Source of the DNA: Rhodomicrobium sp.
GTDB taxonomy: Bacteria > Pseudomonadota > Alphaproteobacteria > Rhizobiales > HXMU1428-3
Direction: 5' to 3'
DNA length: 64,000 nt
Assembly (NCBI GenBank): GCA_021604665.1
Contig: BQJK01000002.1
Coordinates: 372,001 to 436,000, forward strand
Shown here: piece after piece, positions 22,761 to 58,449 of the stretch
How positions within the stretch are numbered: position 1 is the stretch's first letter
Layout: every line of letters starts with the position of its first letter
Program-made: the position numbers and the translations under genes
Notes under the pieces: model-generated
What the model was told of the DNA's origin: nothing
What the model saw: only the letters and a program-made list of their open reading frames with translations
Database searches by the model: none

Positions 22761-22929
22761 TTTTTCTTTTTGCCTGTTGGCTTGAACTGATTGCTGGTTT
22801 GGTTTTTGTTTTTATTGATAATATAGTGCGTTCAGCCTGTTTTGCCACAAATCTGCCGGGGGGCAAATGGTTTTATTGTGGTTCTTAGCGGCTGCTATCA
22901 TTTTTTAAGTACTGAATTTGGGGGAATAT

Positions 22930-23532
22930 ATGGCTTTTCTATATCGGGTTTTTCCGTTTTTCTTGCTTGTTACCTATCTGGCGCTGATGATCCTCTTGGC
23001 GATTGATCCCTTTAGCCGGGAGACCTGGTTTGCTGAAAATCTACCGGTGTGGATTGTGGTGGCGGCGCTGGTTTTTACCTTCCCCAAATTTCGTTTCTCG
23101 AATCTATCCTATTTTTTAATGTGGTTTTTCCTCTGCTATCACACGATTGGCGGGCATTACACCTTCTCCAGAGTGCCGTTTGATTTCTTTAATGACCTTA
23201 TTGGTTCAGAGCGAAATAACTTTGACCGGGTCGGGCATTTTCTGGTCGGGGTGTTTGCTTATCCGGCGGCGGAGCTTTTCATCCGTAAAGGCTGGACCGC
23301 GTTTAAATGGGTGGCCGTGCTTATCGGCTTTATGGCTGTTTCCACCTGGGCGGGGCTCTATGAGGTGATTGAGATGATATATGCGGTGAATTACGGCGGC
23401 GATGAAGCGGCTGATTTCCTTGGCAGCCAAGGCGATATCTGGGACGCGCAAAAAGACATAGCGATGGATATGCTCGGCGGGCTGTTATTTGGCGGGTTCT
23501 ATTATTGGTGCGGTGGTGATGAGCGGGATTAG
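22930..23532 (+). CDS. YjdF-like membrane protein (DUF2238)
   Basis: About 200 residues with five or six hydrophobic helices. The family signature is clear: RNNFDRVGHFLVGVFAYPAAE, then WAGLYEVIEM, then GSQGDIWDAQKDIAMD. ATG 22930 is preferred over the TTG at 22918 because GGGGGA lies just upstream. Function of the family is not established. Its stop codon overlaps the stop of the convergent minus-strand gene at 23529. Confidence 0.8.
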   Translation: MAFLYRVFPFFLLVTYLALMILLAIDPFSRETWFAENLPVWIVVAALVFTFPKFRFSNLSYFLMWFFLCYHTIGGHYTFSRVPFDFFNDLIGSERNNFDRVGHFLVGVFAYPAAELFIRKGWTAFKWVAVLIGFMAVSTWAGLYEVIEMIYAVNYGGDEAADFLGSQGDIWDAQKDIAMDMLGGLLFGGFYYWCGGDERD

Positions 23533-24197
23533 GCTGCGATATTATCTCCGGTTGCCTCAGACTTGCGGCGACCAAGTACTAGCGCTTCATGACGATCATT
23601 GATCGCTTCAATGGCGATTGATTTATTTTTCAACTTGCTGGCCGGGTGTCCTGAAAATTTTGTTGCGATCAATTTGATGTCAGCGACCTTGAGCTTTTTA
23701 ATTTCCTGAACAATTTCGGGGAAACGTTGCTCGTCTCTGAGCGCATTGGTTAATTTTTCAGTATATTCGGCCACCAGCTCTTGTTGTTTGCGAAGCTTTT
23801 CTTCTTTTTCGGCTTGTTTCTTCAGCTTCTCATGCTCTTCATTTTCCAGAGCAGTAAGTGCAGCATCGATGAATTGCTCAAAACTCACTTGTTCAAATTT
23901 CGTGAGGGTTTTTTCCAAAGCTGTTAGATCATTTACATAGGCCGCTTTGGCAGGCTTTTTCAAAAAGCTTTTCAGCTGTGCGACTTGGGGTTTCATTTTG
24001 CCAAGCGCAACACCAGAACCATCCGCGGCGGGCTTAATTTTATCGATTGATTTCAGTAACTGGCTGACGGTTTTATCTGGAGAAAAGGCAAAGACTTTAT
24101 TGAGTTCCCGCCATCTTTGTGATGCATCATGCGCATCAGAGATTTGTAGCAGTTCAACATATTCATTAATAAACTGGTTGAAGTCTTTCGCTTTCAT
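23529..24197 (-). CDS. unrecognised protein with coiled coil and SAP-like C-terminus
   Basis: 222 residues; I do not recognise the family. The N-terminus is helical and lysine-rich. Residues about 120-165 form a strongly charged Glu/Lys helix (EEHEKLKKQAEKEEKLRKQ), probably a coiled coil. The stretch from KKLKVADIKLIATKFSG to KNKSIAIEAI resembles a small SAP/Rho-N-like helix-extension-helix module. No signal peptide or membrane helix. It starts 19 bases after the membrane ParA stops, so the two are almost certainly co-transcribed. Several 60-base lines here count about 32-47% GC, below the window norm. Possibly the DNA-, cargo- or partner-binding component of the ParA pair; inference only. 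Confidence 0.7.
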   Translation of the reverse strand: MKAKDFNQFINEYVELLQISDAHDASQRWRELNKVFAFSPDKTVSQLLKSIDKIKPAADGSGVALGKMKPQVAQLKSFLKKPAKAAYVNDLTALEKTLTKFEQVSFEQFIDAALTALENEEHEKLKKQAEKEEKLRKQQELVAEYTEKLTNALRDEQRFPEIVQEIKKLKVADIKLIATKFSGHPASKLKNKSIAIEAINDRHEALVLGRRKSEATGDNIAA

Positions 24198-24216
24198 TGA
24201 CCTAACCTTTCAGCGT

Positions 24217-25413
24217 TTAATGCCTTAGCCCCATACGGTTTATGACCTCTTGTGCTAAGGCCTCTGTTGCTTGATTTATCCGTTCAGCAGTAGAGTTATC
24301 ATTTCCAAAAGGATATATGATTCCCTCACCAAAGGAGGCAGCAAGTGCCTTAAATCTGGGGATGAAAGTCTCACCGGGGAGAATATCGACTTTTCTACCT
24401 GGTCCGCCTTCATCCCAAGTGGATCTTAATAAGTCGCCTAGTTGTAAAATTGAGGGGTCATGACCCAGATTCTCAATCTTGGTAGTGGGCGATACCATAG
24501 ATCCTACAACACCAATATGTTGAATATGAGGACAGATTCCTGCACCTCTTAGACTTTCAACCTGCCTTACAAAACTGTTCACAGCTTCTGTCGAGGCTTT
24601 ATTCAGGATGGTAGGAATGAGCAGGTGTGAGCTTGTGGCGAGTGCCTGAATTTTTGCAGTGGTGAGCCTTGGGGGGCAATCCAGGATTATCAGGCTGAAT
24701 TTGTTACGCACATCTTCATTCAGCAGGATATTAGCAAGGTTAAAGCGAACATCATTATCTCGATCACTTAAGAGCCATTCAATCATCAACCTATTTTCGG
24801 TATTTGCCAAATCATAATAAGCGGGGAGAATTTTTAGATTGTTCCTGCCGGTGACGGTGAAATTCGTCGTCACGACTTCATGCTTTGAGAGATCACCTCT
24901 GATGAGTTTGGTGGCATGAGAGTCAGTGTTATTGGGGGGCCATATGTCATCATGTGGGTTGGCAAATCCGGCCAGCGTGCCTTGAAAATCCAGATCAATG
25001 AGTAGGACCGGTTTCTGTTCTGCCACACCTTCATTGAGCATAATAGAGAGGCAAGAGGCCAGATTTGCAGAAATCGTTGTTTTGCCAACACCGCCTTTTA
25101 AATTAGCAATGCTGAGAATTTTGGCGAGTTGAACTCTATCGGCGTAATTATCAGGTCTTGGGATTATTGGAGCGGCCTTCCAGAGGCCTTCTCCTTCAAC
25201 CATGCCGCCATTTTTTTCAACTTGCGCGACAGCCGCATGAGCTGATTTCATTCTATTGAAGTAGTTTATCTTTTCTTTAACGTAATTAAATAACTGCTTT
25301 GCGAACAATAGAAAGAGTGCAAAAATTGTTGCAGCTATAACTTCACCCACATTATGAGCTATTAATGGGCCTATCTTATTCCAGGCCCCTGAAATTATAC
25401 CAGTGATACTCAC
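24217..25413 (-). CDS. ParA-type ATPase with N-terminal membrane helix
   Basis: 398 residues. Residues about 22-41 (EVIAATIFALFLLFAKQ) are a single hydrophobic helix followed by a basic linker, so the ATPase should be tethered to the inner face of the membrane. The deviant Walker A LKGGVGKTT lies near residue 105, Walker A' is LLIDLDFQGTL and Walker B LIILDCPP. ParA, MinD and Soj relatives usually bind DNA or membrane reversibly and lack a fixed helix, which makes this architecture unusual. It lies between two small unrecognised genes and 650 bases downstream of a second ParA gene. Sampled lines count about 30-52% GC versus 62-63% in the neighbouring ParA1. Cargo unknown. Confidence 0.82.
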   Translation of the reverse strand: MSITGIISGAWNKIGPLIAHNVGEVIAATIFALFLLFAKQLFNYVKEKINYFNRMKSAHAAVAQVEKNGGMVEGEGLWKAAPIIPRPDNYADRVQLAKILSIANLKGGVGKTTISANLASCLSIMLNEGVAEQKPVLLIDLDFQGTLAGFANPHDDIWPPNNTDSHATKLIRGDLSKHEVVTTNFTVTGRNNLKILPAYYDLANTENRLMIEWLLSDRDNDVRFNLANILLNEDVRNKFSLIILDCPPRLTTAKIQALATSSHLLIPTILNKASTEAVNSFVRQVESLRGAGICPHIQHIGVVGSMVSPTTKIENLGHDPSILQLGDLLRSTWDEGGPGRKVDILPGETFIPRFKALAASFGEGIIYPFGNDNSTAERINQATEALAQEVINRMGLRH

Positions 25414-25510
25414 AACCCACCCCGTATTACTTATACTGGCATTAGATGAGCATTTATTTTAATGGGTAGCAAATCATTTATCTAAGTATTCGCACAGCAA
25501 CGGCAACCTA

Positions 25511-25999
25511 TTACCCCGCCGCGCCTTTGCGTTGCCGGTCGTATTCGGCGGCGAAGGTGATGAGGGCAGTGATGAGGTCTTGTTTGGTGTGTGTTTTGCC
25601 TTTTAGCTTTAGTTTTTTGCGCAGCTGGAAATGCCGGATGAGGGCATTGAGGTTGGCGATGGTCAGCTTTTGCAATTTGACGCGCATCAAGTCTTCACCA
25701 AATTCCCGGTATAGCGTGATCGGGTTATAAGGTGTAGCGGCAAAGGTTGAGGTTTTTGCTGGTGCTGCCTTGGCTGCAGCGGCTTTTTTGGGTGGTTTTG
25801 TGGGCTGAACATTTTGCGGGGATGCCTTTTGTAACTCCAGCTGCGGCAAGGCCCCTTCGGGCAGGCTTTTTAGCATATCTTCCGCAAAGCGCGGGTTGCG
25901 CTCGGCTTCATTCAGGATGGTTTGAAAAAGCCGCGACAATAGCTCATGAGCTGGTTGCTCTTGTTGTTTTTGTTTTTCTGGCTCCTCAGATTTGCTCAT
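25511..25999 (-). CDS. unrecognised small protein with SAP-like C-terminus
   Basis: 162 residues, family not recognised. Order: charged Glu/Gln N-terminus, an amphipathic helical stretch (ELLSRLFQTILNEAERNPRF), a Pro/Ala/Lys-rich linker (about 70-95) and a basic helical C-terminus from KLTIANLNALIRHF to KQDLITALITF, which looks like a SAP-type helix-extension-helix. The same kind of module ends the 222-aa protein two genes on. It lies 67 bases after ParA1 and 97 before the membrane ParA, all on the minus strand. A DNA-binding adaptor between the two ATPases is a reasonable guess, not shown by the sequence. Confidence 0.68.
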   Translation of the reverse strand: MSKSEEPEKQKQQEQPAHELLSRLFQTILNEAERNPRFAEDMLKSLPEGALPQLELQKASPQNVQPTKPPKKAAAAKAAPAKTSTFAATPYNPITLYREFGEDLMRVKLQKLTIANLNALIRHFQLRKKLKLKGKTHTKQDLITALITFAAEYDRQRKGAAG

Positions 26000-26066
26000 G
26001 AGTTTGTCCTATATATTGTGCGGCGCAGGGCATTGCGAACGGCACTCTCTCTGCTCTTTGTGCCAG

Positions 26067-26951
26067 CTATGCCGAGGCATATTCATTTTCTATTGGCACG
26101 GTTTGCGGCGCATGGTGCTTCCAGGTCAAAATGGCTTCGTGTAGATTTTCAACCAAGTTACGGGCGCTGCCAAATTTGATAGATGGGCTAACCGGTTCTT
26201 CATTATAGCTCAGCGCATTTACAAGGGCCTGACGGGAGGGGATTTGTAAGCCAAACTTTCCATATTCATGCTCTATCGCGTCAATCACCATGGCGCTCCC
26301 CCCCGCATTCCCAACCCTGTTTGCAATCGGTATGAAGCGGGTTTCAATATCGCGGAGCAGCACGTTTTTCATGAGGGCGCGGATATTATCTTCTGCTGTT
26401 GGGTCTGCTGTGTAGGGGATGAGCGCATAATCAGCTGCGCGCAAGCCGCCCCATGCGGCGCAAGACAGGCCGGGCGGGCAATCAAGGATCACCACATCAT
26501 AGAGCCCATCCGCAGAGCGGATGATATTGGCGACCTTTCGCTCAATATCGTAAAACACCTCTTCTAAGGTTGGCTCTGACTGGGCCATCATATAAAGGAG
26601 GGTGCGCTCGCTATCATCGAGCGCCGATGATGAAGGGATGACATCTATCACCGGGTCACGGGGCGGGCTGATCACATCGCCGCCGCCTTGCACGATGAAC
26701 TGGCTGATATCAATATTCTTCCCGTCGCCAAAGGCATTTATCAGCATATCGCCGGCATGGCGGCCTGAATCTTTTGCCTCTATCCAGCGGTCCGCCCCCA
26801 AGAAAGAGAGGCTGGAGCTGGCTTGCGCATCCAGATCAATGACCAGCACACGCTTTTGCCCATATAGGGCGAAGCCATAGGCTGTCATCATGGTTAATGT
26901 GGTTTTGCCAACGCCGCCTTTGCGGTTTGAAATGGCGATAAAGTCAGTCAT
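26067..26951 (-). CDS. ParA family ATPase (soluble)
   Basis: 294-residue deviant-Walker ATPase. NRKGGVGKTTLTM (Walker A) starts near residue 8, VLVIDLDAQASSS is Walker A' and VVILDCPPGLS is Walker B. No membrane helix, and no N-terminal HTH as in plasmid ParA type Ia; no parB-like gene or parS-like repeats nearby. It begins 37 bases after recR stops on the same strand and leads the four-gene set. It is not the chromosomal ParA, which normally sits beside parB and gidAB. Likely positions or segregates something together with the membrane ParA. Confidence 0.85.
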   Translation of the reverse strand: MTDFIAISNRKGGVGKTTLTMMTAYGFALYGQKRVLVIDLDAQASSSLSFLGADRWIEAKDSGRHAGDMLINAFGDGKNIDISQFIVQGGGDVISPPRDPVIDVIPSSSALDDSERTLLYMMAQSEPTLEEVFYDIERKVANIIRSADGLYDVVILDCPPGLSCAAWGGLRAADYALIPYTADPTAEDNIRALMKNVLLRDIETRFIPIANRVGNAGGSAMVIDAIEHEYGKFGLQIPSRQALVNALSYNEEPVSPSIKFGSARNLVENLHEAILTWKHHAPQTVPIENEYASA

Positions 26952-26988
26952 ATTATTGGCCTCGTGACTGTTATCTGAAATTTTTGGT

Positions 26989-27594
26989 TTAGATCATTTT
27001 TCTGGATTTGATGGCCGCCGCTAATGTGCCTTCATCCAGGTAATCAAGCTCACCGCCAACCGGCACGCCGTGGGCAAGCCGACTTGCCTGCACCCCGGCA
27101 TTCGCCAGCTGCTCAGTTATGTAATGGGCGGTGGATTGCCCCTCTACTGTGGCATTCAGCGCGAGTAGCACCTCTTTCACATCGTCACCGCTGGCCCGCT
27201 CTACCAGTTTCGCGATGCTTAGATCATCCGGCCCAATGCCATCGAGTGGTGAGAGAGTGCCACCTAGCACATGATATTGCCCCTTTATCACCTCTGCCCG
27301 CTCGAGTGCCCACAGGTCGCCAACGGTTTCAACAACACAAATAAGGTTGGTTGCACGGCGGTTATCTGAACAGAGGCTGCAGGGGTTGCTGGTGTCAATG
27401 TTGCCGCAAGTGCTGCATTCGACAATTTTTTCAACCGCCTCATTTAAAGCGCGGGCCAAAGGCACCATCAGGCTGTCTTTTTTTCTAATCAGGTGCAAAG
27501 CCGCGCGCCTGGCTGAGCGCGGGCCAAGCCCTGGCAGCTTTGAAATGAGCTTTATTAGCTCAGCTATTTCAGGTCCAGTGACAGAGCGTGACAT
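26989..27594 (-). CDS. recR: recombination protein RecR
   Basis: 201-residue clamp protein of the RecFOR pathway that loads RecA at gaps. Helix-hairpin-helix [17 protein letters not shown], zinc finger [14 protein letters not shown], and Toprim [14 protein letters not shown] followed by the C-terminal [17 protein letters not shown] are all present. Length is standard. It is third of dnaX-ebfC-recR, a widely conserved order. Confidence 0.96.
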
Positions 27595-45112: not shown

Positions 45113-46186
45113 ATGGAAACCTTTTATGACGTTATGAGACGTCAGGGGATCACCCGCCGGAGCTTCTTGAAATATTGCAGCCTAACAGCTGCAGCGCTCG
45201 GGCTTGGTCCATCTTTCGCACCGAAAATCGCACATGCCATGGAAACAAAGCCTCGTATTCCTGTTCTATGGCTTCACGGTCTTGAATGCACCTGCTGCTC
45301 GGAAAGCTTTATCCGTTCAGCGCACCCTCTTGCTAAAGATGTGGTGTTATCCATGATTTCACTCGACTATGATGACACAATTATGGCCGCTGCTGGTCAT
45401 GAAGCTGAAGCCATCATTGAAGAGATTGTTGAGAAATATAAAGGCAACTACCTGCTGGCTGTTGAGGGCAACCCGCCCCTTAATGAAGATGGCATGTACT
45501 GCATCATCGGCGGCAAGCCATTTACCGAACAGCTGAAATATGCAGCCGAGCATGCAAAAGCCATTATCTCCTGGGGCTCTTGCGCCTCCTGGGGTTGTGT
45601 GCAAGCGGCGCGGCCAAATCCAACACGGGCAACACCGGTTCATAAAGTTCCTGGCCTTGCCGCTAAACCAATCATTAAAGTGCCTGGCTGCCCGCCGATC
45701 GCTGAGGTGATGACGGCTGTTGTTACTTACATCCTTACATTTGAGCGCTTCCCTGAGCTAGACCGCCAGGGCCGGCCGAAGATGTTCTACTCACAACGTA
45801 TCCATGACAAATGCTATCGCCGGCCACACTTTGATGCTGGTCAGTTTGTTGAGAAATGGGACGATGAGGGCGCTAGAAAAGGCTATTGCCTATATAAAAT
45901 GGGCTGTAAAGGGCCGACAACTTATAACGCCTGTTCAACAGTTCGCTGGAATGGTGGCCTGTCCTTCCCAATTCAAGCCGGTCATGGCTGCATCGGTTGT
46001 TCTGAGGACGGCTTCTGGGATAAGGGCGGCTTCTATGACCGATTAACCGACATCCATCAATTTGGAATCGAGGCCAACGCAGATGAAATTGGCGTTGGGG
46101 CGGCGACTGTCGTCGGTGCGGCTGCGGCAGCACATGCGGCTGTCAGTGCGGTTAAGCAAGCGCGCGTTAAGGGAGAAACTGACTAA
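45113..46186 (+). CDS. hupS: uptake [NiFe] hydrogenase small subunit, oxygen-tolerant type
   Basis: 357-residue electron-transfer subunit with three iron-sulfur clusters. The twin-arginine signal is RRSFLK at residues 15-20; HupSL is exported folded and sits on the periplasmic face. The proximal cluster region reads ECTCCSES (Cys59, 61, 62) and GSCASWGC (Cys157, 162): the second and last of these replace glycines of standard enzymes and mark the [4Fe-3S] cluster of oxygen-tolerant group 1d hydrogenases such as Ralstonia HoxK. A C-terminal anchor helix (about 320-340) is Ala-rich. GGAGG lies before the ATG. Stop and hupL start overlap (TAATG). Confidence 0.96.
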
Positions 46187-47988
46187 TGGCTATTCAAACA
46201 CCTAACGGCTACACACTCGACACCACTGGTGAGCGCGTTGTTGTCGATCCGGTTACCCGGATTGAAGGGCATATGCGCTGCGAAGTGAATGTGAACGAGC
46301 ATAATATGATCACCAATGCGGTCTCCACCGGCACCATGTGGCGCGGTCTTGAGGTTATCCTCAAAAATCGTGACCCACGGGATGCCTGGGCGTTTGTGCA
46401 ACGGATTTGCGGTGTGTGCACAGGCACGCACGCTCTGACATCTGTACGCGCGGTGGAAGATTCACTTGGTATTGAGATTCCGGAAAATGCGAACAGCATT
46501 CGGAATATTATGCAGCTCTCTCTTGAGATCCATGATCACCTTGTGCACTTCTATCACCTGCATGCGCTTGACTGGGTAAACCCTGTTAACGCGCTTAAGG
46601 CTGACCCACGCGATACATCTATGCTGCAAAAGGCAACATCGCCGCGTCACCCTAAATCATCACCGGGCTATTTCCGGGATATACAAAACCGTTTGAAGAA
46701 ATTCATTGAAAGCGGCCAGCTTGGCCCGTTCAAGAACGGTTATTGGGATAACCCTGCCTATCTTCTGCCACCTGAAGCTGACTTGATGGCTGTGACCCAC
46801 TATCTTGAAGCGCTTGATTTCCAAAAAGAAATTATGAAAACCCGGACCATCTTTGGTGGTAAGGACCCGCACCCGAACTGGTTGGTTGGCGGTGTGCCTT
46901 GCCCGATTAACATTGACGGCGAGGGCTCAGTTGGCGCGATCAACATGGAAAGCCTGAACCGGGTGCGCTCGGTTATTGAGCAAACCATTGAGTTCTGTGA
47001 CAATGTTTACATCCCGGATATTCTGGCGATTGGTAAGATTTATTACGATAAAGGCTGGACCTATGGTGGCGGTATTTCCGGCACTGATGTTATGGCTTAT
47101 GGTGACATTCCTGATAGAGCGAATGACTACGGTAAATCAAACCTGATGATGCCTCATGGTGCCATTATTGGTGGGAACCTCAATGAAGTGCATGATGTTG
47201 ACCTGAGAGACCCTGAGCAAATTCAAGAATTTGTGCCGCACTCCTGGTACAAATATGATGATGAGAGCAAAGGCCTGCACCCTTGGGATGGCGTCACTGA
47301 TCCGCATTATGAGCTTGGTCCACAAACCATTGGTACACGGACCAATATTAAACAACTTGATGAAGCGGCAAAATACTCCTGGATTAAAGCGCCACGCTGG
47401 CGCGGTAATGCGATGGAAGTTGGCCCGCTTGCTCGTTATGTTGTTGGCTATGCCACGAAGCACACTGAGTTCACTGATCAAATCAATGATACTCTTGGTG
47501 CCCTTGGTAATGCCCCTGTTAGCGCGCTCTTTACAACGATTGGCCGGACGGCTGCTCGTGCGCTAGAGGCCCAATGGTGTGCTTATAAGCAACGCTACTT
47601 CCTTGATAAGATGATTGCCAACATCAAAGCTGGTGACGAGACAACTGCAAACACTGATAACTGGGACCCACAGACCTGGCCCAAAGAAGTTAAAGGTGTT
47701 GGCTTTACAGAAGCGCCGCGCGGTGCTCTTGCTCACTGGATCAGAATCAATGACCAGAAGATTGAAAACTACCAATGTGTGGTTCCGACCACATGGAATG
47801 GTAGCCCACGCGATCTGAATGGAAACATTGGCGCGTTTGAAGCCTCTCTCATGAATACGAAAGTTGAACGGCCACACGAGCCGGTGGAAATTCTACGGAA
47901 TATCCACTCCTTCGACCCGTGCCTTGCTTGTTCAACTCACGTTATGGGACCGGATGGTCAGGAATTGGCGAAAGTCAAAGTAAGATAA
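46186..47988 (+). CDS. hupL: uptake [NiFe] hydrogenase large subunit
   Basis: 600-residue catalytic subunit that splits H2. RICGVC (Cys75, Cys78) and DPCLAC (Cys579, Cys582) supply the four Ni ligands. The chain ends in His585 followed by a 15-residue tail starting VMGPDG, which HupD removes once Ni is inserted. The length and motifs are those of group 1 enzymes. Begins one base inside the hupS stop, so the two subunits are coupled in translation. Confidence 0.97.
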
Positions 47989-48000
47989 AGGAGGTGCGTC

Positions 48001-48711
48001 ATGGCTGAACATAGCGCAGCTCAACAAACAGCCGTTTATGTCTACGAAGCGCCAGTACGAATTTGTCATTGGATAAATTTCTTCGCCATCGTTGCGCTTT
48101 GTATAACCGGCTATCTAATCGGTTCACCCTTACCCTCTGTTTCTTCAGGTGAGGCAAGTGACCATTACATGATGGGGTATATCCGCTTCGTTCATTTTGC
48201 GGCGGCTTATATCTTCATTATCGGATTTGTCTTCCGCGCCTATTGGGCGATCGTTGGCAACTCCCACTCGAAAGAGATCTACACGCCCCGCATCTTTTCC
48301 GGTGTTTTCTGGAGAGATGTCTGGCATGAGATCAAATGGTATGGGTTTATGACATCGGAACCAAAAAAATACACCGGTCATAACCCTCTTGCCATTATCA
48401 GTATGCATCTAATGTTTGTCTGGGGCTCTATTTTTATGATCATTAGTGGTCTTGCCCTTTACGGTGAAGGCGCTGGCATGAGCAGCTGGCAATATACCTT
48501 CTTTAGCTCTTGGTTCATTCCTCTTATGGGGCAGAGCCAGGATGTGCATACCTGGCATCATCTTGTGATGTGGCTGCTGATTGTATTTGCAATCATCCAT
48601 ATTTACGTGGCGGTGCGAGAAGACATTATGTCAAGGCAATCGATTATCAGCTCCATGATTTCCGGTTGGCGGATGTTCAAAGACAACCGCCCAGCGGACG
48701 ACCTTGATTAG
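48001..48711 (+). CDS. hupC: hydrogenase cytochrome b subunit HupC
   Basis: 236-residue di-haem cytochrome b that anchors HupSL and passes electrons to the quinone pool. Four helices are visible (for example WINFFAIVALCITGYLIG, MHLMFVWGSIFMIISGLAL and HHLVMWLLIVFAIIHIYV) with His residues in the VRICHW and HxxH contexts that bind haem. AAGGAGG precedes the ATG. Last gene before a strong terminator. Confidence 0.94.
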   Translation: MAEHSAAQQTAVYVYEAPVRICHWINFFAIVALCITGYLIGSPLPSVSSGEASDHYMMGYIRFVHFAAAYIFIIGFVFRAYWAIVGNSHSKEIYTPRIFSGVFWRDVWHEIKWYGFMTSEPKKYTGHNPLAIISMHLMFVWGSIFMIISGLALYGEGAGMSSWQYTFFSSWFIPLMGQSQDVHTWHHLVMWLLIVFAIIHIYVAVREDIMSRQSIISSMISGWRMFKDNRPADDLD

Positions 48712-48736
48712 TCTATTCGCCCCTCACCAACAACTA

Positions 48737-48768
48737 AGGCGCCTCACATTTGAGGCGCCTCTTTTTTT
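48737..48768 (+). terminator. intrinsic terminator after hupC
   Basis: AGGCGCCTCA, a CATT loop and TGAGGCGCCT give a perfect 10-bp stem followed by C and seven T. It ends the hupSLC unit and isolates it from the hupD promoter. Confidence 0.92.
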
Positions 48769-49018
48769 GCCTCGCGCCTATTTACCTCAAACCCTTCTAT
48801 TGCATTCACGGGTTTTATCATCGGCGCTTAGGTCGGAAAGCAACTAACCATTAGCCTGCTATTTATCACGTAACCGGCTAAATCAGGGCTGTGAAAAATT
48901 ATTTTACTGCAAAGTTTCTTTCCATTTTTACGCCAGAGTGGATACCACGCCTTCTTACTGGCTGGTCAACCTTAGCGATTATTATAATTTATACATATAT
49001 TACAGTGGTTTAGGTAAC

Positions 49019-49034
49019 TGGCCCGATGCTTGCT
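49019..49034 (+). promoter_or_regulatory. sigma-54 (-24/-12) promoter of the hupD operon
   Basis: TGGCCCGATGCTTGCT fits TGGCNCG-N4-TTGCW, deviating only by C for A at one position. It lies in the 529-base gap between hupC and hupD and predicts a leader of about 195 bases. The upstream 250 bases hold an AT-rich stretch (48980-49000) and TTAGCC/GGCTAA inverted repeats near 48862-48891 that might serve IHF or the activator. Confidence 0.8.
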
Positions 49035-49240
49035 ATCTTTAGTCGCATATTATTGCATAATGGTAAAATCCCGGCGCGACTGCGAAGTTACTTTCCAGTT
49101 TTAATCGGAAAAATAAACGACCAAGCAAGATATTCAGACCTTTAAGTAGGCAAAGTGCCGGACAACCTCATCTGAAATGGTGGCCCGGCTCGTGACATAA
49201 GAATCATCCGCACAAATGCGTTATCTGGGGAGATATTGTG

Positions 49241-49963
49241 ATGGGTTCTAATAAAATACTCATTTTAGGAATTGGCAACCTGCTCTGGGCTGATGAAGGC
49301 TTTGGGGTGCGTGCCGTTGAGCATATGCATAGTCATTATGATGTACCACCTGAAGTGGTTGTCCTTGATGGCGGTACACAGGGGCTTTACCTGGTTCAGC
49401 ATGTGCGTGAATGCGATTATCTTATTGTTTTTGATGCGGTTGATTATGGGCTTGAGCCTGGCACCATGAAGCTAGTGCGTGATAAAGAAGTGCCCAAGTT
49501 TCTTGGCGCCAAAAAAATCAGCCTTCATCAAACAGGATTTCAGGAAGTGCTCGCCACTGCAGAGATGCTTGGCAACTACCCCAAAGGCATCTTGCTGATC
49601 GGCGTGCAGCCGGTTGAACTTGAAGATTATGGCGGGAGCCTACGGCCTGAAGTTAAAGACAAAATTGAACCTGCCATTCAGCATGCCATTGATTTCCTGA
49701 AAGACATTGGCGTGACTATCACCAAGCGTGATGTGCCCATTGGTGATGATGGGCTTGTTGGTTGCGAAGTGGTGACCATGGAGAATTATGAAAAACTCCG
49801 CCCCAGTGAACAAGATGCCTGCCGCATTGGTGATGATCGACTTCTGGTCTCCGATGCCTGGAAGGGGCCAACCTTTACTGACTCTGGCATTGCAGAATTT
49901 GACCCGGATTATGTAGGGCCTGCGAAAACCTCACCTTCTTCTGACCAGAATTCAACCAGCTAG
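49241..49963 (+). CDS. hupD: hydrogenase maturation protease HupD
   Basis: 240-residue nickel-dependent endopeptidase (HyaD/HybD family) that cuts the C-terminal tail of HupL after His585. LGIGNLLWADEGFGVRAVE holds the metal-binding Glu; FDAVDYG and LHQTGFQEVL supply the other Asp and His ligands. Beyond the usual 165-195 residues there is an extra C-terminal stretch rich in polar residues. ATG 49241 is chosen; GGGGAG lies 8 bases upstream. First gene of the accessory operon. Confidence 0.93.
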   Translation: MGSNKILILGIGNLLWADEGFGVRAVEHMHSHYDVPPEVVVLDGGTQGLYLVQHVRECDYLIVFDAVDYGLEPGTMKLVRDKEVPKFLGAKKISLHQTGFQEVLATAEMLGNYPKGILLIGVQPVELEDYGGSLRPEVKDKIEPAIQHAIDFLKDIGVTITKRDVPIGDDGLVGCEVVTMENYEKLRPSEQDACRIGDDRLLVSDAWKGPTFTDSGIAEFDPDYVGPAKTSPSSDQNSTS

Positions 49964-49973
49964 GGGGCCTTTT

Positions 49974-50285
49974 ATGTGCATGGGGATTCCGATGCTGGTG
50001 GTTGACGCAACCGAGGGCAGTGCTGTCTGTAAGCGCGGCGATGAGAATGTGACGGTTGATATGTCACTGGTTGGCGACCAGCCAACTGGCACCTGGGTGC
50101 TTACCTTTTTAGGAGCCGCGCGCGAAGTTATTTCAGCTGAGCAAGCGCAGGATATTCAAAATGCGTTAGAAGCCGTTTCCCTTGCGGTAACAGGGGCCAA
50201 TGATGGGGATATTGACCTCTTATTTGCGGACCTAGTTGGGCGAGAGCCTCAGCTACCACCGCATTTACGGCCTAAATCTGACTGA
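49974..50285 (+). CDS. hupF: HupF, HypC-family hydrogenase chaperone
   Basis: 103 residues starting MCMGIPM, the HypC/HupF signature in which Cys2 binds the Fe(CN)2CO unit or the large subunit. It is longer than HypC (about 75-90 aa) and ends in a Pro-rich tail (LPPHLRPK), which favours HupF. In studied species HupF works beside HypC to stabilise HupL under oxygen. hypC itself is not in the window. 10 bases after hupD. Confidence 0.9.
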   Translation: MCMGIPMLVVDATEGSAVCKRGDENVTVDMSLVGDQPTGTWVLTFLGAAREVISAEQAQDIQNALEAVSLAVTGANDGDIDLLFADLVGREPQLPPHLRPKSD

Positions 50286-50370
50286 GCCTGATGCCGTCTG
50301 CCATCAATTACCGCCCCTGCTCTTTTTGCAGTTTGGGAGGTTCAGACGCAAAATTTTAATGGAGAAATTT

Positions 50371-50814
50371 ATGTCTTTTATTCCACTCGTTAGAATGATT
50401 ATCGAAGAAAATAACTACCCGATTGTTACAGAAGAATCGCTGGATGAATGGGCCGCAGCGCATGATGTTGTGATGCTGTTTTTTGGCGGTGATGGTGAGC
50501 GGCTGGATGAAACGGCTGATGTGGCTGTTGTTGTGCCGATGCTAGATCGGCATTTTGGAGGTCGCTTTAAATCTGCTGTGGTGGCGAGAGAGTCTGAACG
50601 GCAATTGCAAGTGCGCTACCGGTTCAATGCCTTCCCGACCCTGGTGTTTTTGAAAAATGGTGGCTATCTCGGCGCTATTTCGCGAATGCAGGACTGGGGT
50701 GACTATGTGGCGATGGTCGAAGAAATCTTAAAAGGTGAGCCGGGCGATGCGCCTGCATTCAAGCTGCCCCATGGCTGCGGCACTGATGAAAGCACTGATG
50801 CGACTGCGCATTAG
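50371..50814 (+). CDS. hupG: HupG, thioredoxin-like hydrogenase assembly protein
   Basis: 147 residues of the HyaE/HoxO/HupG family, with a thioredoxin fold but no CxxC; VMLFFGGDGERLDETAD and RFNAFPTLVFLKNGGYLGAI show the strands. It chaperones the small subunit before Tat export. The track begins at 50236, inside hupF; ATG 50371 with TGGAGA just upstream gives the right N-terminus. Late LPHGCG cysteine is a small oddity. Confidence 0.85.
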   Translation: MSFIPLVRMIIEENNYPIVTEESLDEWAAAHDVVMLFFGGDGERLDETADVAVVVPMLDRHFGGRFKSAVVARESERQLQVRYRFNAFPTLVFLKNGGYLGAISRMQDWGDYVAMVEEILKGEPGDAPAFKLPHGCGTDESTDATAH

Positions 50815-50918
50815 ATTTTGGCCTAACTGGCAACCGATAGCCCCTTAGAAACTGGCCGCCTTAAGAGCCAGTGGGATTTTGGATTAATAATTTTAGTTAT
50901 TATTTTGGGAGACTTTCA

Positions 50919-51791
50919 ATGAGCAATATTTTTCCGCCTTCTGTGCCGCTTGGCGGCGTTGGCCCCGGTAGCCAGCCTATGGAACCTGATGGGGGTCAGC
51001 TGGAATATATGGAAATGCCATCTGAGATGGTGACATATTCGATGCCTGACATTCCAGAGCCTGAAAATCTCGTTGGCCTGAATGATGCCAAACGGGTTTT
51101 GACAGAACTTAAAGAGGCGCTTCACTCTTATAAAGTCGGCGAAGACACCATTATCCTCGATATTACTGATATTGCAGATAAAGATCAGGCGCTTATTAAC
51201 CAGGTGCTGGGTGAGGGCGAAGTCTCTGCCATTGGCGGGCCGAATATTCAAGCCCAGGAAGCAGTGCTGGCCGGTGTTTGGCGGGTGCGTACTGGTGACG
51301 ATAACGGTGTTGTTATTAAAGACCTGATTGAAGTTGCTGACTTCCCGACATCCATTCTCGGCACCACTTTCAGAAGTGCGAAACTGCGCCCTGATCCTGT
51401 GCCAGAGCAATTACCTGAAGGGGTTTTGAATGCCTCGCCGCTGGTTGTTGAATTAACGGATCATCTTGATAAATTTCAACCCGGTGATGCGCCGCATGTT
51501 ATTAACCTGACCCTTTTGCCGCAAACGGATGAAGACATTGCCTTCCTTGGGAAACAGCTGGGTTATGGCAACACTACCATTCTTTCGCGTGGCTATGGCA
51601 ACTGCCGTATTTCTTCTACTGGCACTAATAACATCTGGTGGGTTCAATTCTTCAATAGCCAGGATGCAATCATTCTAAATACGATTGAAATTGACAGGAT
51701 CCCTCAAGTGGCCTGCGCAGCTCAAGAAGATATTGACGAAAGCGACCAACGGCTGGGCGAAATATTAGAGGTCTATCTCAACCATGACTGA
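50919..51791 (+). CDS. hupH: HupH, hydrogenase expression/assembly protein
   Basis: 290 residues of the HyaF/HoxQ/HupH family. ALINQVLGEGEVSAI, AQEAVLAGVWRVR and the C-terminal RGYGNCRISSTGTNNIWWVQFFNS are conserved. It acts with HupG on HupS maturation. ATG 50919 follows GGGAGACTTTCA. It overlaps hupI by 8 bases. Confidence 0.92.
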   Translation: MSNIFPPSVPLGGVGPGSQPMEPDGGQLEYMEMPSEMVTYSMPDIPEPENLVGLNDAKRVLTELKEALHSYKVGEDTIILDITDIADKDQALINQVLGEGEVSAIGGPNIQAQEAVLAGVWRVRTGDDNGVVIKDLIEVADFPTSILGTTFRSAKLRPDPVPEQLPEGVLNASPLVVELTDHLDKFQPGDAPHVINLTLLPQTDEDIAFLGKQLGYGNTTILSRGYGNCRISSTGTNNIWWVQFFNSQDAIILNTIEIDRIPQVACAAQEDIDESDQRLGEILEVYLNHD

Positions 51792-52029
51792 TCAGAAACC
51801 AGAGCCTGATGGTAAAGGATTTTATGCCGGCTCTTATGGCGGCAATGATGAGAAGATTGGGCCTAAGACGCGTCTCGAATGTAAAATCTGCTGGGAAATT
51901 TATGACCCAGCATTGGGGGATGATTATTGGCAGATCCCCGCCGGGACAGCTTTTTTCGATTTGCCTGACCATTGGACCTGTCCCAATTGCGATGGCAAAA
52001 AAGATGAATTTATGGTCGTGAAGGATTAG
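51784..52029 (+). CDS. hupI: HupI rubredoxin
   Basis: 81 residues. CKIC and CPNC are the two halves of the rubredoxin Fe(Cys)4 site, with EIYDPALGDDYWQIPAGT between them. HoxR/HupI rubredoxins help assemble the HupS clusters when oxygen is present, matching the oxygen-tolerant HupS here. Overlaps hupH by 8 bases. Confidence 0.94.
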   Translation: MTDQKPEPDGKGFYAGSYGGNDEKIGPKTRLECKICWEIYDPALGDDYWQIPAGTAFFDLPDHWTCPNCDGKKDEFMVVKD

Positions 52030-52124
52030 GGGCTTTGCGGGTCTTGCTTGAAATAGCGGCCCGCTGCCCCCTCTGCTCCGCAGGCCCAAACCGCGATTAA
52101 AAATCGCAGCAACTGGTGGTACCG

Positions 52125-52901
52125 ATGCAAGATGAGCTCACTACAGATAGCTTAAGCCCGCCCCTTAGCGATGAGGCGGATGAGGTAAATGAAGCAGTGG
52201 TTGAGGCGGCTTCTGGCACAGAGCCTGTCATTCCAGAATTTGGTTCTGATGAGCATTCCGACCGGCTGGAGGCGTTGTTTAAAAAGATTTATGTAACCGC
52301 CATGCATGATGTGCCCATTTGCAATTCGGCGATTAAAGTTGAGGCAATCGCCTATGGCCGTTTTGAAGATATGTGGATGGGGGCGCTTGTAACCCCCTGG
52401 TGCATGAACCTGATGCTGTTACCTGTTGAGGAAAGCTGGGATGGGCAGCGCACCGGCGATAAGCATAAGCATAAGCTGCCAGCTGGGTCATATGAATTTA
52501 TCAACGGGGCGCATGAGGATTTTGGCCCCTATCGCATGTGCTCTCTTTTCTCCCCCATGTATGAATTTGCGGACCACGCCTCTGCTATGGCAACTGCTGC
52601 CGTGGCGCTTGATGCGGTGATGACAGCGCAAACAGCTGAAGAGCAGCAAGCGGAAGAAGAAGCGATGATGGCGGCCATTATGGCTGGCGCGGTGCCGGAA
52701 GATATGAGAGTGGAACCGCTGCCCAATGGTGATGAAGCCTATGAGGATGATGAAGAAACACCCTCTGAACTCGCCTCCTCTACAGAAGTTGAAGCAGGTG
52801 ACCCAGGGCCTGATGGTGATGGCGCCGCAAACTCAGATAATGATGAGCCCATTGATATGGGCCGCCGTTCGTTTCTCAGGGGCGGTGATAATAATGGGTA
52901 A
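52125..52901 (+). CDS. hupJ: HupJ, HybE/HoxT-type hydrogenase chaperone
   Basis: 258 residues. The core (about 50-170) has DVPICNSAIKVEAIAYGRF, TPWCMNLMLLP and the GSYEF/GPYRMCSLFSPMYEF stretch of the HybE family, which monitors Tat-dependent assembly. The N-terminus (40 aa) and C-terminus (about 70 aa) are acidic extensions. The protein ends GRRSFLRGG, a twin-arginine-like motif at the C-terminus. ATG 52125 is used; GTG 52116 is possible. GCGATT/AATCGC hairpin (52093-52107) lies just upstream. Confidence 0.85.
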   Translation: MQDELTTDSLSPPLSDEADEVNEAVVEAASGTEPVIPEFGSDEHSDRLEALFKKIYVTAMHDVPICNSAIKVEAIAYGRFEDMWMGALVTPWCMNLMLLPVEESWDGQRTGDKHKHKLPAGSYEFINGAHEDFGPYRMCSLFSPMYEFADHASAMATAAVALDAVMTAQTAEEQQAEEEAMMAAIMAGAVPEDMRVEPLPNGDEAYEDDEETPSELASSTEVEAGDPGPDGDGAANSDNDEPIDMGRRSFLRGGDNNG

Positions 52902-52952
52902 TGTGATGAGACGAATAGCTGAGGATCGCCGGGGAGAAGGGTCTGCTTTGTG

Positions 52953-54203
52953 ATGACACCGAATGCGCAAATCGAAGTCCTTATCAGCATTGATGGCGCT
53001 GACAAGAAGTCGGTTACGATCACCAATAATCGACCTGTGCAGGCAGCCCAGCTGTTTGTTGGTAAAAAGGTAAGCGAAGCGCTTCGTATCATTCCGCTGT
53101 TGTTTCATGTGTGCGGCAAAGCCCAGGGGTTTGCCGCGGTTAGTGCGGTGGAAGCTGCGCTTGGTCAGCCAGCAGATACTGAAAGCCGCCTCGCCCGGCA
53201 GATTGTCTGTGATAGCGAATTAATTCGTGAGCATTTATTGCGGATATTTCTCGATTGGTCCGCTTTTATGCCAGATGAATTCAAATCCTCCGATCGCACA
53301 GCTGAATTGCAAGAGGTTATGTCTATTTTGCCTCAATTTGAGCAGGGGCTCTATAATGGTGCTAAACCATTTAACCTTTCTAGCCGCTGCGATTTGAATG
53401 CTGAGACATTGCGCAGCGCGCTCCGAAAGCTTGAAGAGTTATTGACCCGTCATATTTACGGCGCCCCGCCGGCACTTTGGCTGGCAGCACAGAGCCGGGA
53501 TGTAATTTTTCATTGGATGCAGAACGCCAAAACACTGGCAGGTAAAAGCTGCGGCCGTATTGTTCAAAATAACTGGGCGAAAGCTGGCGCTTTGGACCCC
53601 GCGGCCGAGCCAAGATTTTTACCGCCGCTTTCTGCAGAGACTTTGTACCCAAAACTGTTTGGTGTGACTGCTGAGCGTTTCATTCAGCAACCGACATATC
53701 GGGAAAGGGCTTTGGAAACATCTGCCCTATCGCGTCATCACTTTCACCCCTTATTGCGCATATTGATGCAATATTGCGGGACCGGATTATTGACCCGCCA
53801 AATAGCACGGTTGGTGGAAGTGGCTGTGGTTTTTGCCACTCTTTCCGAGAGTGTTGAGCGCTTACTGGCCGGGGATGCGGACGTGCCGCACTGCCGCGAA
53901 GCGCCTGCCTCATTTGAGCGGCGGCGGGGCCTGGCCATGGTGGATGCCTCACGCGGCGTGTTAGTCCATGCTGTTGAGCTTGCAGGTGAGGTGGATAACA
54001 AATGTGTGACGGATGACCCTGTGATTTCCTGTTATCGTATACTTGCTCCGACGGAATGGAATTTCCACGCCTCTGGCCCGCTGGTTTCTGCGCTAGAGGC
54101 TATTGAAGGCCGCGATGAAGCGCATATCCGGCAGATGGCTGAAATGTTGATTTCCTCTATTGACCCATGCACCGGCACAAAACTGGAGGTGCATTATGCA
54201 TGA
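52953..54203 (+). CDS. hupK: HupK, HupL-like maturation scaffold
   Basis: 416 residues of the HoxV/HupK family, a catalytically dead relative of the large subunit. The first motif is degenerate (FHVCGKAQG) and the C-terminal one reads IDPCTGTKLEVH, keeping one cysteine of DPCxxC. It is thought to hold the Fe(CN)2CO group during HupL assembly. The C-terminus overlaps hypA by 8 bases. GTG 52950 is an alternative start. Confidence 0.9.
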   Translation: MTPNAQIEVLISIDGADKKSVTITNNRPVQAAQLFVGKKVSEALRIIPLLFHVCGKAQGFAAVSAVEAALGQPADTESRLARQIVCDSELIREHLLRIFLDWSAFMPDEFKSSDRTAELQEVMSILPQFEQGLYNGAKPFNLSSRCDLNAETLRSALRKLEELLTRHIYGAPPALWLAAQSRDVIFHWMQNAKTLAGKSCGRIVQNNWAKAGALDPAAEPRFLPPLSAETLYPKLFGVTAERFIQQPTYRERALETSALSRHHFHPLLRILMQYCGTGLLTRQIARLVEVAVVFATLSESVERLLAGDADVPHCREAPASFERRRGLAMVDASRGVLVHAVELAGEVDNKCVTDDPVISCYRILAPTEWNFHASGPLVSALEAIEGRDEAHIRQMAEMLISSIDPCTGTKLEVHYA

Positions 54204-54537
54204 AATGTCGATCTGTGAAGGCATTCTCCAGGTTTTGGAGGCGGAAAGCCAGACGAAGAATTTTAAGGTCGTAAAAAAAGTATTTGTTGAGATCGGCCCG
54301 CTTTCTGGTGTTGAAGTTGAGGCGCTCAGATTTAGTTTTGATGTTGTGATGAAGGGCTCGTTAGCTGATACAGCGGTGCTTGAAGTTATCGAGACGGACG
54401 CCAAGGCCTGGTGCATGAACTGCAATGAACCGGTGATTATTAAACAGAGATTTGACGACTGCCCGCAATGCGGCTCTGCGCAAATTCAAGTGACGAGCGG
54501 CGAAGAACTGGCAATTAAAGAATTGGAGGTGGACTGA
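54196..54537 (+). CDS. hypA: nickel metallochaperone HypA
   Basis: 113 residues. MHEMS at the N-terminus supplies the nickel-binding His2, and CMNC..CPQC forms the zinc site. It delivers Ni to HupL with HypB. ATG 54196 with GGAGGT directly upstream; the track's 54160 lies in hupK. TGATG joins it to hypB. Confidence 0.96.
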
Positions 54538-55532
54538 TGTGCACTGTATGTGGCTGCGCTAGCGGCAATGTAAATATTGAGGGCAAAGACCCTCACAAGC
54601 CCCACTCACATGAAGCTGGGGATGGTCACACACATGACCATACTCACGATCATCACCATGATCACACTCATAATGACGGTCATGATCACGATCATAGCCA
54701 TTCTCATGATCATAGCCATAATCATGTAGAAGGTGATGACACCCATGATTATGGGCAAGGGCCTGCCCATGCCCATGCGCCGGGCCTTAGCCAAGGCCGC
54801 ATGGTACAGATTGAGCAAAATATTCTCGCCAAGAATAATGAATATGCGGCTGCCAATCGTAACTTTTTTAACGAGCGCGGTATTCTGGCTCTTAATTTGG
54901 TTTCAAGCCCTGGCTCTGGCAAAACAACCACGCTTTGCGAAACCATTAAGCAGCTGCAAAATGAGCATGATTGCTTCGTGATTGAAGGTGACCAACAAAC
55001 AGCTAATGATGCTGAGCGCATTCGGGAAACGGGGGCTAAGGCCATTCAGGTGAACACCGGGAAAGGCTGTCATTTGGATGGGCATATGGTCGGCCATGCC
55101 CTTGGCAGCTTAAGCCCAACTGAAGGCAGCTTCATGTTTATTGAAAATGTTGGCAACCTGGTATGCCCTGCCAGTTTTGACCTTGGAGAAGCGCATAAGG
55201 TTGTTGTGCTCTCGGTAACCGAGGGAGAAGACAAGCCATTAAAATACCCAGATATGTTCCACGCTGCTGATCTCATGCTGTTAAACAAGGTTGATCTGCT
55301 ACCGCATATTAATTTCGATGTTGAGGCTGTTGTGGCCAATGCACGCCGGGTGAACCCGGGTATTAAAGTGTTGAAAATTTCTGCCACAACTGGTGAGGGC
55401 TTTGATGATTGGACAAGCTGGCTAAAAGCCACAAGAGCGGTTGCCATGATTGGGCGACCGGCACTTCATGAGGACCGCAGCGCAGATAAAACTGACATCA
55501 ATGAAGCTGGCTCAAAGGCCCAGAGCGCCTAG
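54537..55532 (+). CDS. hypB: HypB GTPase with His-rich nickel-storage region
   Basis: 331 residues. N-terminal CTVCGC is the high-affinity nickel site; residues about 20-80 hold some 25 histidines in HDH repeats, a nickel store as in Bradyrhizobium HypB. The G domain has [10 protein letters not shown] (P-loop), [10 protein letters not shown] and NKVDLLPH (NKxD). GTP hydrolysis drives Ni insertion. Coupled to hypA by a one-base overlap. Confidence 0.97.
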
Positions 55533-55547
55533 AAGCGGGGAAGAATT

Positions 55548-57050
55548 ATGAGTGATATATCAAAGGATCTCCCGACTATACTGGTGATTGATGATGAAGC
55601 CAGATCCGTTGAGGCTCTGGAGCGTATTCTTGAGGAAGATTTCTCAGTGCGCACCGCAACATCAATCTCAGATGCAGAGGCGATCCTTGAGAGCGATCAC
55701 ATTCATATCCTTTTATGCGATCAATGCATGCCGGATATGACGGGGGTTGAGTTCCTTAAAACGGCCCGTGAGCGCTGGCCTGATATTGTTCGCATAATCA
55801 TCTCTGGCTATACGGACGCTGAGGATATTATTCGCGGCGTCAATGAGGCTGGGATTTACCAATATGTCACCAAGCCGTGGCAACCCGAATCTTTGCTTCT
55901 CACATTGCAAAATGCTGCCCGGTTGTTTGACTTGCAACGCAGTAACGAGCTGCTGGCGATTGAGCTGAAAATGTCCGCTAACCGGGCTGAATCAGTGATG
56001 GAAACCAGACGGCGCGACCTCAAAGAAAATTACAATTATGACGATGGTATCATTCGCTCTGATACCAGCGCGATGAATGATATTTGTGACCGGCTCTCGC
56101 AGCTGGCACCTTATGATGTTTATGTGCTTATTACCGGCGAATCTGGCACGGGCAAAGAGCTTGCTGCGCGCTCGCTGCATTACAATAGCCTTAGATGGAA
56201 CAAACCTTTTGTAGTTGAAAATTGCGGCGCGCTGCCTGATGAGCTATTGGAAAGCGAATTATTTGGCCATAAGCGCGGGGCGTTTACCGGCGCTGTTCAA
56301 GACCATGTTGGGCTGTTTGAGCGGGCCGATGGTGGCACCATTTTCCTTGATGAGATTGGCGAGGTTTCTCCTGCCTTCCAGGTGAAGCTGCTTAGGGTCT
56401 TGCAGGAAGGTGAAATTCGCCCGGTTGGCTCCAGTAAAACGCGGCATGTAGATGTACGTGTGATCGCTGCGACGAATAAAGACCTGGAGACGGAAATGAG
56501 AGCTGGCCGTTTTCGCCAGGATCTTTACTACCGGCTAGCTGGCGTCACCATAACCCTGCCGCCGCTACGCGAACGGCGTGATGATGTAGAGCCAATAACC
56601 CAAATTCTGTTTGATCGTGCGCAATTGAGCTTGAAAAAGCCTGTTGGAAGCTTGCATGCTGAAACAATAGCCTGCCTTAAGCGCTACCACTGGCCGGGTA
56701 ATGTGCGTGAGTTGATGAATGAGATCCAGCATATGGTTGTAATGGCTGAAGAAGGGGCAGATTTAACGGCTGATTTACTTAGCCCAAGGATCTTACGTGC
56801 GGCCCCGCCTGATGATGATGGTGTTTTGGAGACATTTGCCAGCCTTGATGGTACATTGAAAGACCGGATTGAAGCGCTTGAGGCGCGCATCATTCATGAA
56901 ACGCTGATCCGCCATCGCTGGAATAAGAGTAAAGCGGCAAGAGAGCTTGGCTTGTCGCGGGTTGGGTTACGGTCCAAATTGGAGCGGTATAGCCTTGATA
57001 AAATTGAAAGCCTTGACGAACCAACTGAAAAGGTGAAACGGAAGGTCTAA
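55548..57050 (+). CDS. hupR: NtrC-family response regulator HupR/HoxA
   Basis: 500-residue activator of hydrogenase genes. Receiver domain 10-125 with DD15-16, phospho-acceptor Asp58 ([10 protein letters not shown]) and TKPW; central AAA+ with GESGTGKE, the sigma-54 contact GAFTGA and DEIGE; C-terminal Fis-type HTH ([20 protein letters not shown]). In HoxA/HupR systems the unphosphorylated form activates. The intact GAFTGA agrees with the two sigma-54 promoters seen in the locus. It lies directly after hypB, the place it occupies in Rhodobacter capsulatus. Confidence 0.95.
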
Positions 57051-57059
57051 CTTTAAATT

Positions 57060-58445: not shown

Positions 58446-58449
58446 CCAT

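Follow-up and report, generated by a model that had tools for sequence, protein, structure and literature searches.

The locus between recR and the YjdF gene

The window analyzed here, meaning the whole 64,000-nucleotide stretch of a Rhodomicrobium sp. contig, comes from a 2.9 Mb genome in 6 contigs. Four ORFs on its minus strand run in one direction between recR and a convergent YjdF/DUF2238 gene, in the transcription order recR - parA1 - p162 - membrane ParA - p222, an arrangement already recognized in a preliminary description of the sequence. Below, parA1 and p162 are referred to as pair A, and the membrane ParA and p222 as pair B. The features of the locus are as follows.

26989..27594, minus strand: recR, the fixed edge of the slot, located after dnaX and ybaB; the dnaX-ybaB-recR order is kept in related loci
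26067..26951, minus strand: parA1, the pair A ATPase; ORF for a soluble ParA-type ATPase of 294 aa with SNRKGGVGKTT (AAA_31, 7.5e-27)
25511..25999, minus strand: p162, the pair A partner; ORF of 162 aa, pI 9.9, with an N-terminal helical segment, a low-complexity linker and a C-terminal SAP-like pattern
24217..25413, minus strand: membrane ParA, the pair B ATPase; 398 aa, GTG start, with a predicted N-terminal transmembrane helix, a linker and a ParA domain (AAA_31, 1.9e-25)
25285..25341, minus strand: codons of the predicted transmembrane helix, membrane ParA residues 25-43, VIAATIFALFLLFAKQLFN (hydropathy scan)
25075..25098, minus strand: deviant Walker A motif KGGVGKTT with the signature lysine, membrane ParA residues 106-113 (alignment A1)
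23529..24197, minus strand: p222, the pair B partner; 222 aa, pI 9.1, predicted to be helical, with a duplicated N-terminal three-helix unit, a long charged helix and a SAP/HeH-like C-terminus
23553..23726, minus strand: predicted C-terminal HeH/SAP-like helices, p222 residues 158-215 (structure model; pattern conserved across the partner family)
22918..23532, plus strand: YjdF/DUF2238 gene, the other edge of the slot, outside the modules (Pfam DUF2238, 1e-45); found in the same place in L026, L028 and L035

Both ATPases are genuine members of the ParA/MinD group, with AAA_31 matches above the cut-off and an intact KGGVGKTT motif that includes the signature lysine, and both are extra ParAs, because the standard gidB-parA-parB locus of the genome sits on another contig. 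A search of the region of the four genes found neither parB nor a set of parS-like repeats, as had been noted before, and no iteron-like repeat family was detected at 23400-27100, where the two ATPase genes, being homologous, account for the long repeats. The earlier statement that no ParABS, chemotaxis or cellulose context accounts for the locus likewise stands. Elsewhere in the same genome, two closely similar small ParA genes (L003 and L004, on contigs C5 and C2) each lie beside a similar replication-initiator-like gene and may mark plasmid or integrated-plasmid replicons. Farther along the window, reading of the translations revealed a large [NiFe]-hydrogenase region (45113-60955) that resembles uptake and sensory hydrogenase sets, with small and large subunit pairs at 45113-47988 and 58450-60955, a cytochrome b, maturation genes, an NtrC-type regulator and a histidine kinase.

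Residues 25-43 of the membrane ParA form a single, strongly hydrophobic helix (Kyte-Doolittle 1.85) followed by basic residues, and the protein is therefore predicted to be single-pass, N-out and C-in. In a hydropathy scan, 40 of 49 family members showed a transmembrane-like peak (>=1.6); 3 of them are cut short by contig ends. In alignment A1 of the membrane ParAs, K106, K111, D140, D142 and D245 are invariant, providing the deviant Walker A motif, the signature lysine and the switch II aspartate. The ATPase is apparently fixed in the cell membrane by the predicted N-terminal helix, which upholds, at the level of prediction, the membrane tether proposed for the second ParA in the preliminary description.

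Distribution of the two ParA-partner pairs

The 69 non-redundant copies of the membrane ParA come from Alphaproteobacteria and, in a few cases, from Planctomycetota. In a profile search, 64 of them had a partner-family ORF directly downstream on the same strand (within -250 to +500 bp), with a median gap of -4 bp; three of the five copies lacking a downstream partner stop at a contig edge. When the partner profile alone was searched, 16 of 199 genomes were positive, and 15 of these 16 contain the membrane ParA; the informative part of this result is the absence outside the 16 genomes, because the profile was built partly from them. The membrane-ParA profile matched 21 of the 298 genomes searched in the window's order, 14 of 105 Hyphomonadaceae genomes and 1 of 246 Planctomycetota genomes; a class-wide sample of 385 genomes gave 3 hits, one in the window genome itself and two in a different family. 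Scanning GTDB genomes for the membrane ParA yielded 69 loci, a lower bound because exact short peptide matches were required. Loci with a family-specific score belong to Hyphomicrobiales, Hyphomonadaceae and a few other Alphaproteobacteria, together with about nine loci of Planctomycetota; the weakest-scoring loci are for the most part common Soj genes from Bacillota. One membrane ParA and partner region (L118 and L119) is identical across the cassette in a Henriciella MAG and a 'Puniceicoccaceae' MAG, and the latter locus is probably a contamination.

Apart from the partner, no neighbor recurs beside the membrane ParA outside the recR slot (56 loci), be it a mobile, defense or cargo gene, so no cargo is indicated for pair B by its surroundings. 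Distances among membrane ParAs and among their partners correlate (r 0.54, 0 of 5000 permutations), which is compatible with co-evolution and also with mere co-inheritance or shared ancestry. The two genes of pair B form a genuine module, which would represent an uncharacterized kind of device for positioning or tethering in bacteria.

Within the genus, parA1 is 67-72% identical to its counterparts, and a search of 249 genomes of the order found relatives at E<=1e-35 in 23. Among the loci read in other families, a p162-like ORF directly follows the parA1 relative in G016, G025, G032, G059, G008, G113, G143 and G220, at places not linked to recR; in several further loci read, none was detected there. 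Each ParA of the locus accordingly comes with its own partner gene, as first supposed. The two partners share no detectable homology (hhalign probability 0.2% for p162 against the p222 family), and a reading of them as homologous partners was rejected on this ground. Pair A is best explained as a soluble ParA of the ordinary kind that has an unrelated partner of its own and operates in parallel with pair B.

The slot between recR and the YjdF gene was compared with that of seven other genomes of the genus, wherever the slot was covered. Cassette A (parA1 and p162) occupies it in the window, G002, G003, G004, G006 and G007; cassette B (membrane ParA and p222) in the window, G005 and G007; and a third, cassette C (another membrane ParA with a partner, p154), in the opposite orientation in G003, G004, G005 and G007, with a further copy in G001 cut by the contig end. 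A tree built from 65 ATPase domains sets the membrane ParAs apart from the Soj-type and parA1 sequences by a single branch (SH-aLRT 95). Grouping of cassettes B and C in a single clade was rejected (AU p 7.7e-6), and the slot thus holds distinct, old lineages rather than recent duplicates. In some genomes of the genus, the slot also holds a gene for a TRAP binding protein of the TAXI type (369 aa, TIGR02122 8e-26) with two small genes, and in G159, a genome of another family, a relative is located close to a membrane ParA linked to recR (L036:9603-11908; L028:4773-7086; L064:8722-10179).

The preliminary description had joined the four genes into a single device in which the soluble and the membrane ParA act together. 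In favor of such a device, A and B are adjacent in the window genome and in G007, and some genomes of other families, such as G016, G032 and G155, hold both pairs, at separate loci. Among the same-genus genomes, however, A and B are adjacent only in these two; G005 lacks A, whereas G002, G003 and G004 lack B at the slot; genomes of other families have the pairs singly or at separate places; and the partners are not detectably related. A four-gene neighborhood conserved across families, the pattern hoped for at the outset, was not found. We therefore reject a four-gene system and consider joint action of the two ATPases in one device very improbable. The locus consists of two autonomous, independently distributed pairs of a ParA and a partner that share a slot.

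The partner p222 and its family

The AlphaFold2 model of p222 (mean pLDDT 94.1, pTM 0.74) is helical throughout and ends in helices 158-166, 171-182 and 192-215, with a basic loop between the last two, as in HeH/SAP folds. Leave-one-out profiles retrieved every alphaproteobacterial partner at E 2e-6 to 2e-33 (3e-26 for p222 itself), and of seven planctomycete partners tested with a profile built from Alphaproteobacteria only, six were retrieved at E<=2e-4 and one at 0.02. In a control set of 1038 ORFs, no score was better than E 0.16, true partners and partner fragments aside. The pair B partners thus constitute a single family. Long partners carry twice the N-terminal unit that short partners carry once. 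In G032 (L091:986-1644, on the same contig as L033), the partner is split into a 64-aa ORF with the N-terminal unit and a following 155-aa partner ORF, which is consistent with a modular, duplicated N-terminus. The family has a median pI of 9.5. Lysine is at position 2 in 22 of 49 partners, and the p222 N-terminus is predicted to be an ordered helix, not a disordered segment.

Searches of Pfam, NCBIfam, PHROGs, PADLOC and PDB produced no match for the pair B partner family; in particular, no ParB family (HTH/CTPase) in Pfam, NCBIfam or PHROGs matched the partners at E<=0.001, and the p222 model matched no PDB fold at the same cut-off. PDB sequence matches of the partner C-terminal profile were designed helical repeats and were judged to be due to chance. 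As for p162, it matched nothing in Pfam or PDB, and its structure model was poor (pLDDT 44, from only 4 sequences) and for this reason was not interpreted. Both small proteins had been called SAP-like. The Pfam SAP, HeH and Rho_N profiles match neither of them, which leaves the claim weaker than first put, and the p162 model is too poor to bear on it; the predicted helix-loop-helix C-terminus of p222 does fit. For p222, lacking a family or PDB fold match, 'SAP-like' is a statement on topology and pattern only. The protein may possess a SAP/HeH-like C-terminus and is a putative DNA binder, on the strength of its charge and predicted topology.

Possible roles of pair B and comparison with known systems

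With ATP, known ParA/MinD ATPases form dimers and attach to the nucleoid or the membrane; a dedicated partner, docking by its charged N-terminus, brings about their release (PMC10241942). For pair B we infer a topology, partner docking, stimulation of the ATPase, DNA binding and some positioning role along related lines. The membrane ParA would be held in the inner membrane by its one N-terminal helix, with the ATPase domain in the cytoplasm, and its ATP-driven dimerization would create a docking site for the co-expressed p222. The latter would dock through its N-terminal helical unit or units, stimulate hydrolysis and then be released, while its basic, HeH/SAP-like C-terminus would carry the cargo, most simply nucleoid DNA. 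DNA is the simplest cargo because this end of the partner is basic and HeH-like. Since the prediction is one of permanent attachment to the membrane, the ATP cycle would switch partner binding, not surface binding: the ATPase would stay on its track rather than cycle on and off, and the net effect would be a reversible link between cargo and membrane. We place middling confidence in this account of pair B as an ATP-controlled cargo-membrane link made of an anchored ParA and the p222 adaptor, with pair A acting in parallel. In its favor are the gene linkage, the single partner family, the conserved helix and ATPase motifs, and the basic partners with the HeH-like end of the p222 model; against it count the absence of an SAP/HeH profile or PDB fold match for p222, the N-terminal lysine being found in 22 of 49 partners, the helical rather than disordered N-terminus predicted for p222, and the lack of a recurring cargo gene. 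More tentatively, pair B could exemplify a ParA class with an integral-membrane ATPase and a DNA-holding partner, in which the membrane replaces the nucleoid as the track and the chromosome becomes the cargo.

The membrane ParA and its adaptor could instead position a protein complex of the envelope, of secretion or of metabolism, in the manner of McdAB, ParC/ParP or PpfA/TlpT, the HeH-like domain then being a protein-binding module. The partners of known ParA/MinD ATPases vary widely, and many of them bind protein cargo (PMC10241942); the pair B partner, for its part, matches no SAP profile. Yet the partners are basic, as their median pI attests, and no cargo gene recurs beside the pair in the 56 loci. 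A protein cargo is possible and the less probable choice. Still less can be said for an accessory or selfish module, that is, a mobile-element, anti-plasmid or defense pair, which we regard as unlikely. Its distribution is patchy, cassettes turn over in one slot, and ParI, an orphan ParA that destabilizes IncP-7 plasmids, offers a precedent (PMC9178275). The pair nevertheless has no recurrent mobile or defense neighbor. Although 3538 plasmid records match, the best among the matches listed are generic ParAs of ~24-30% identity, with none above about 30%, and viral contigs yielded a single generic match of 28%; a plasmid or phage origin was rejected for want of close relatives, and the suggestion of a plasmid remnant found no support. 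PADLOC returned only weak, generic matches in the P-loop region (PDC-M28B and mad8), so that neither a catalogued defense system nor the defense role once considered for the locus is supported.

Many of the hosts belong to budding or hyphal groups (Hyphomicrobium, Filomicrobium, Hyphomonas and some Planctomycetota), and the membrane ParA might be thought to haul chromosomal DNA through DNA-free stalks or hyphae that offer no nucleoid track to an ordinary ParA. In H. neptunium, the through-stalk step has no known motor, its driving mechanism being unknown, and the stalk is DNA-free beforehand (PMC6650430). A machine required by all budders, however, should not be as patchy as the genome counts given above for Hyphomonadaceae, the window's order and Planctomycetota, and this weakens a general budding role, to which we assign only a marginal chance.

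A reversible link between cargo and membrane remains our preferred reading of pair B. The pair is apparently a ParA variant not described so far, with a partner family of its own; the literature searched, with most subscription journals outside it, describes no integral-membrane ParA of this type. ParA/MinD ATPases position many bacterial cargos, and those studied cycle on and off their surface. If the ATPase remains in the membrane, a different transport logic would be needed, or else the pair would be a switchable tether. With the partner family, many ParA genes that stood as orphans in Hyphomicrobiales and Hyphomonadaceae acquire a defined mate. Because the pair is small and self-contained, and its linkage close to obligate in two phyla, it should be transferable to a laboratory host.

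Several known systems bear comparison. BY-kinases (Wzc, CpsD) couple a ParA-like P-loop fold to the membrane. The window's membrane ParA differs from them in having neither a C-terminal tyrosine cluster nor adjoining polysaccharide genes, and its partner is a predicted helical protein without a membrane segment. ParABS and plasmid RepAB systems share the ATPase fold, and the ParA and RepA models of NCBIfam give weak matches that fall well short of the cut-off; the locus, however, is without ParB and parS-like sites, and the real ParAB of the genome lies elsewhere. Orphan ParAs (PpfA, ParC, BcsQ, ParI) are likewise chromosomal ParAs outside parAB and are tied to special functions, but they have other partners and are not described as membrane-anchored in PMC9178275, and no chemotaxis or cellulose genes recur beside pair B. 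MinD and FlhG are membrane-associated ParA-fold ATPases as well, which use a reversible membrane-targeting sequence (PMC10241942), whereas the pair B ATPase has a predicted N-terminal transmembrane helix instead and no MinE-like partner. McdA-McdB-type ParA/MinD (A/D) systems resemble pair B in the deviant Walker A motif with its signature lysine, in an adjacent, dedicated basic partner and in the presence of more than one such system per genome. The pair B partner family, in contrast, matches no catalogued family searched, and where the known members bind the nucleoid or the membrane reversibly, the pair B ATPase has a predicted transmembrane helix.
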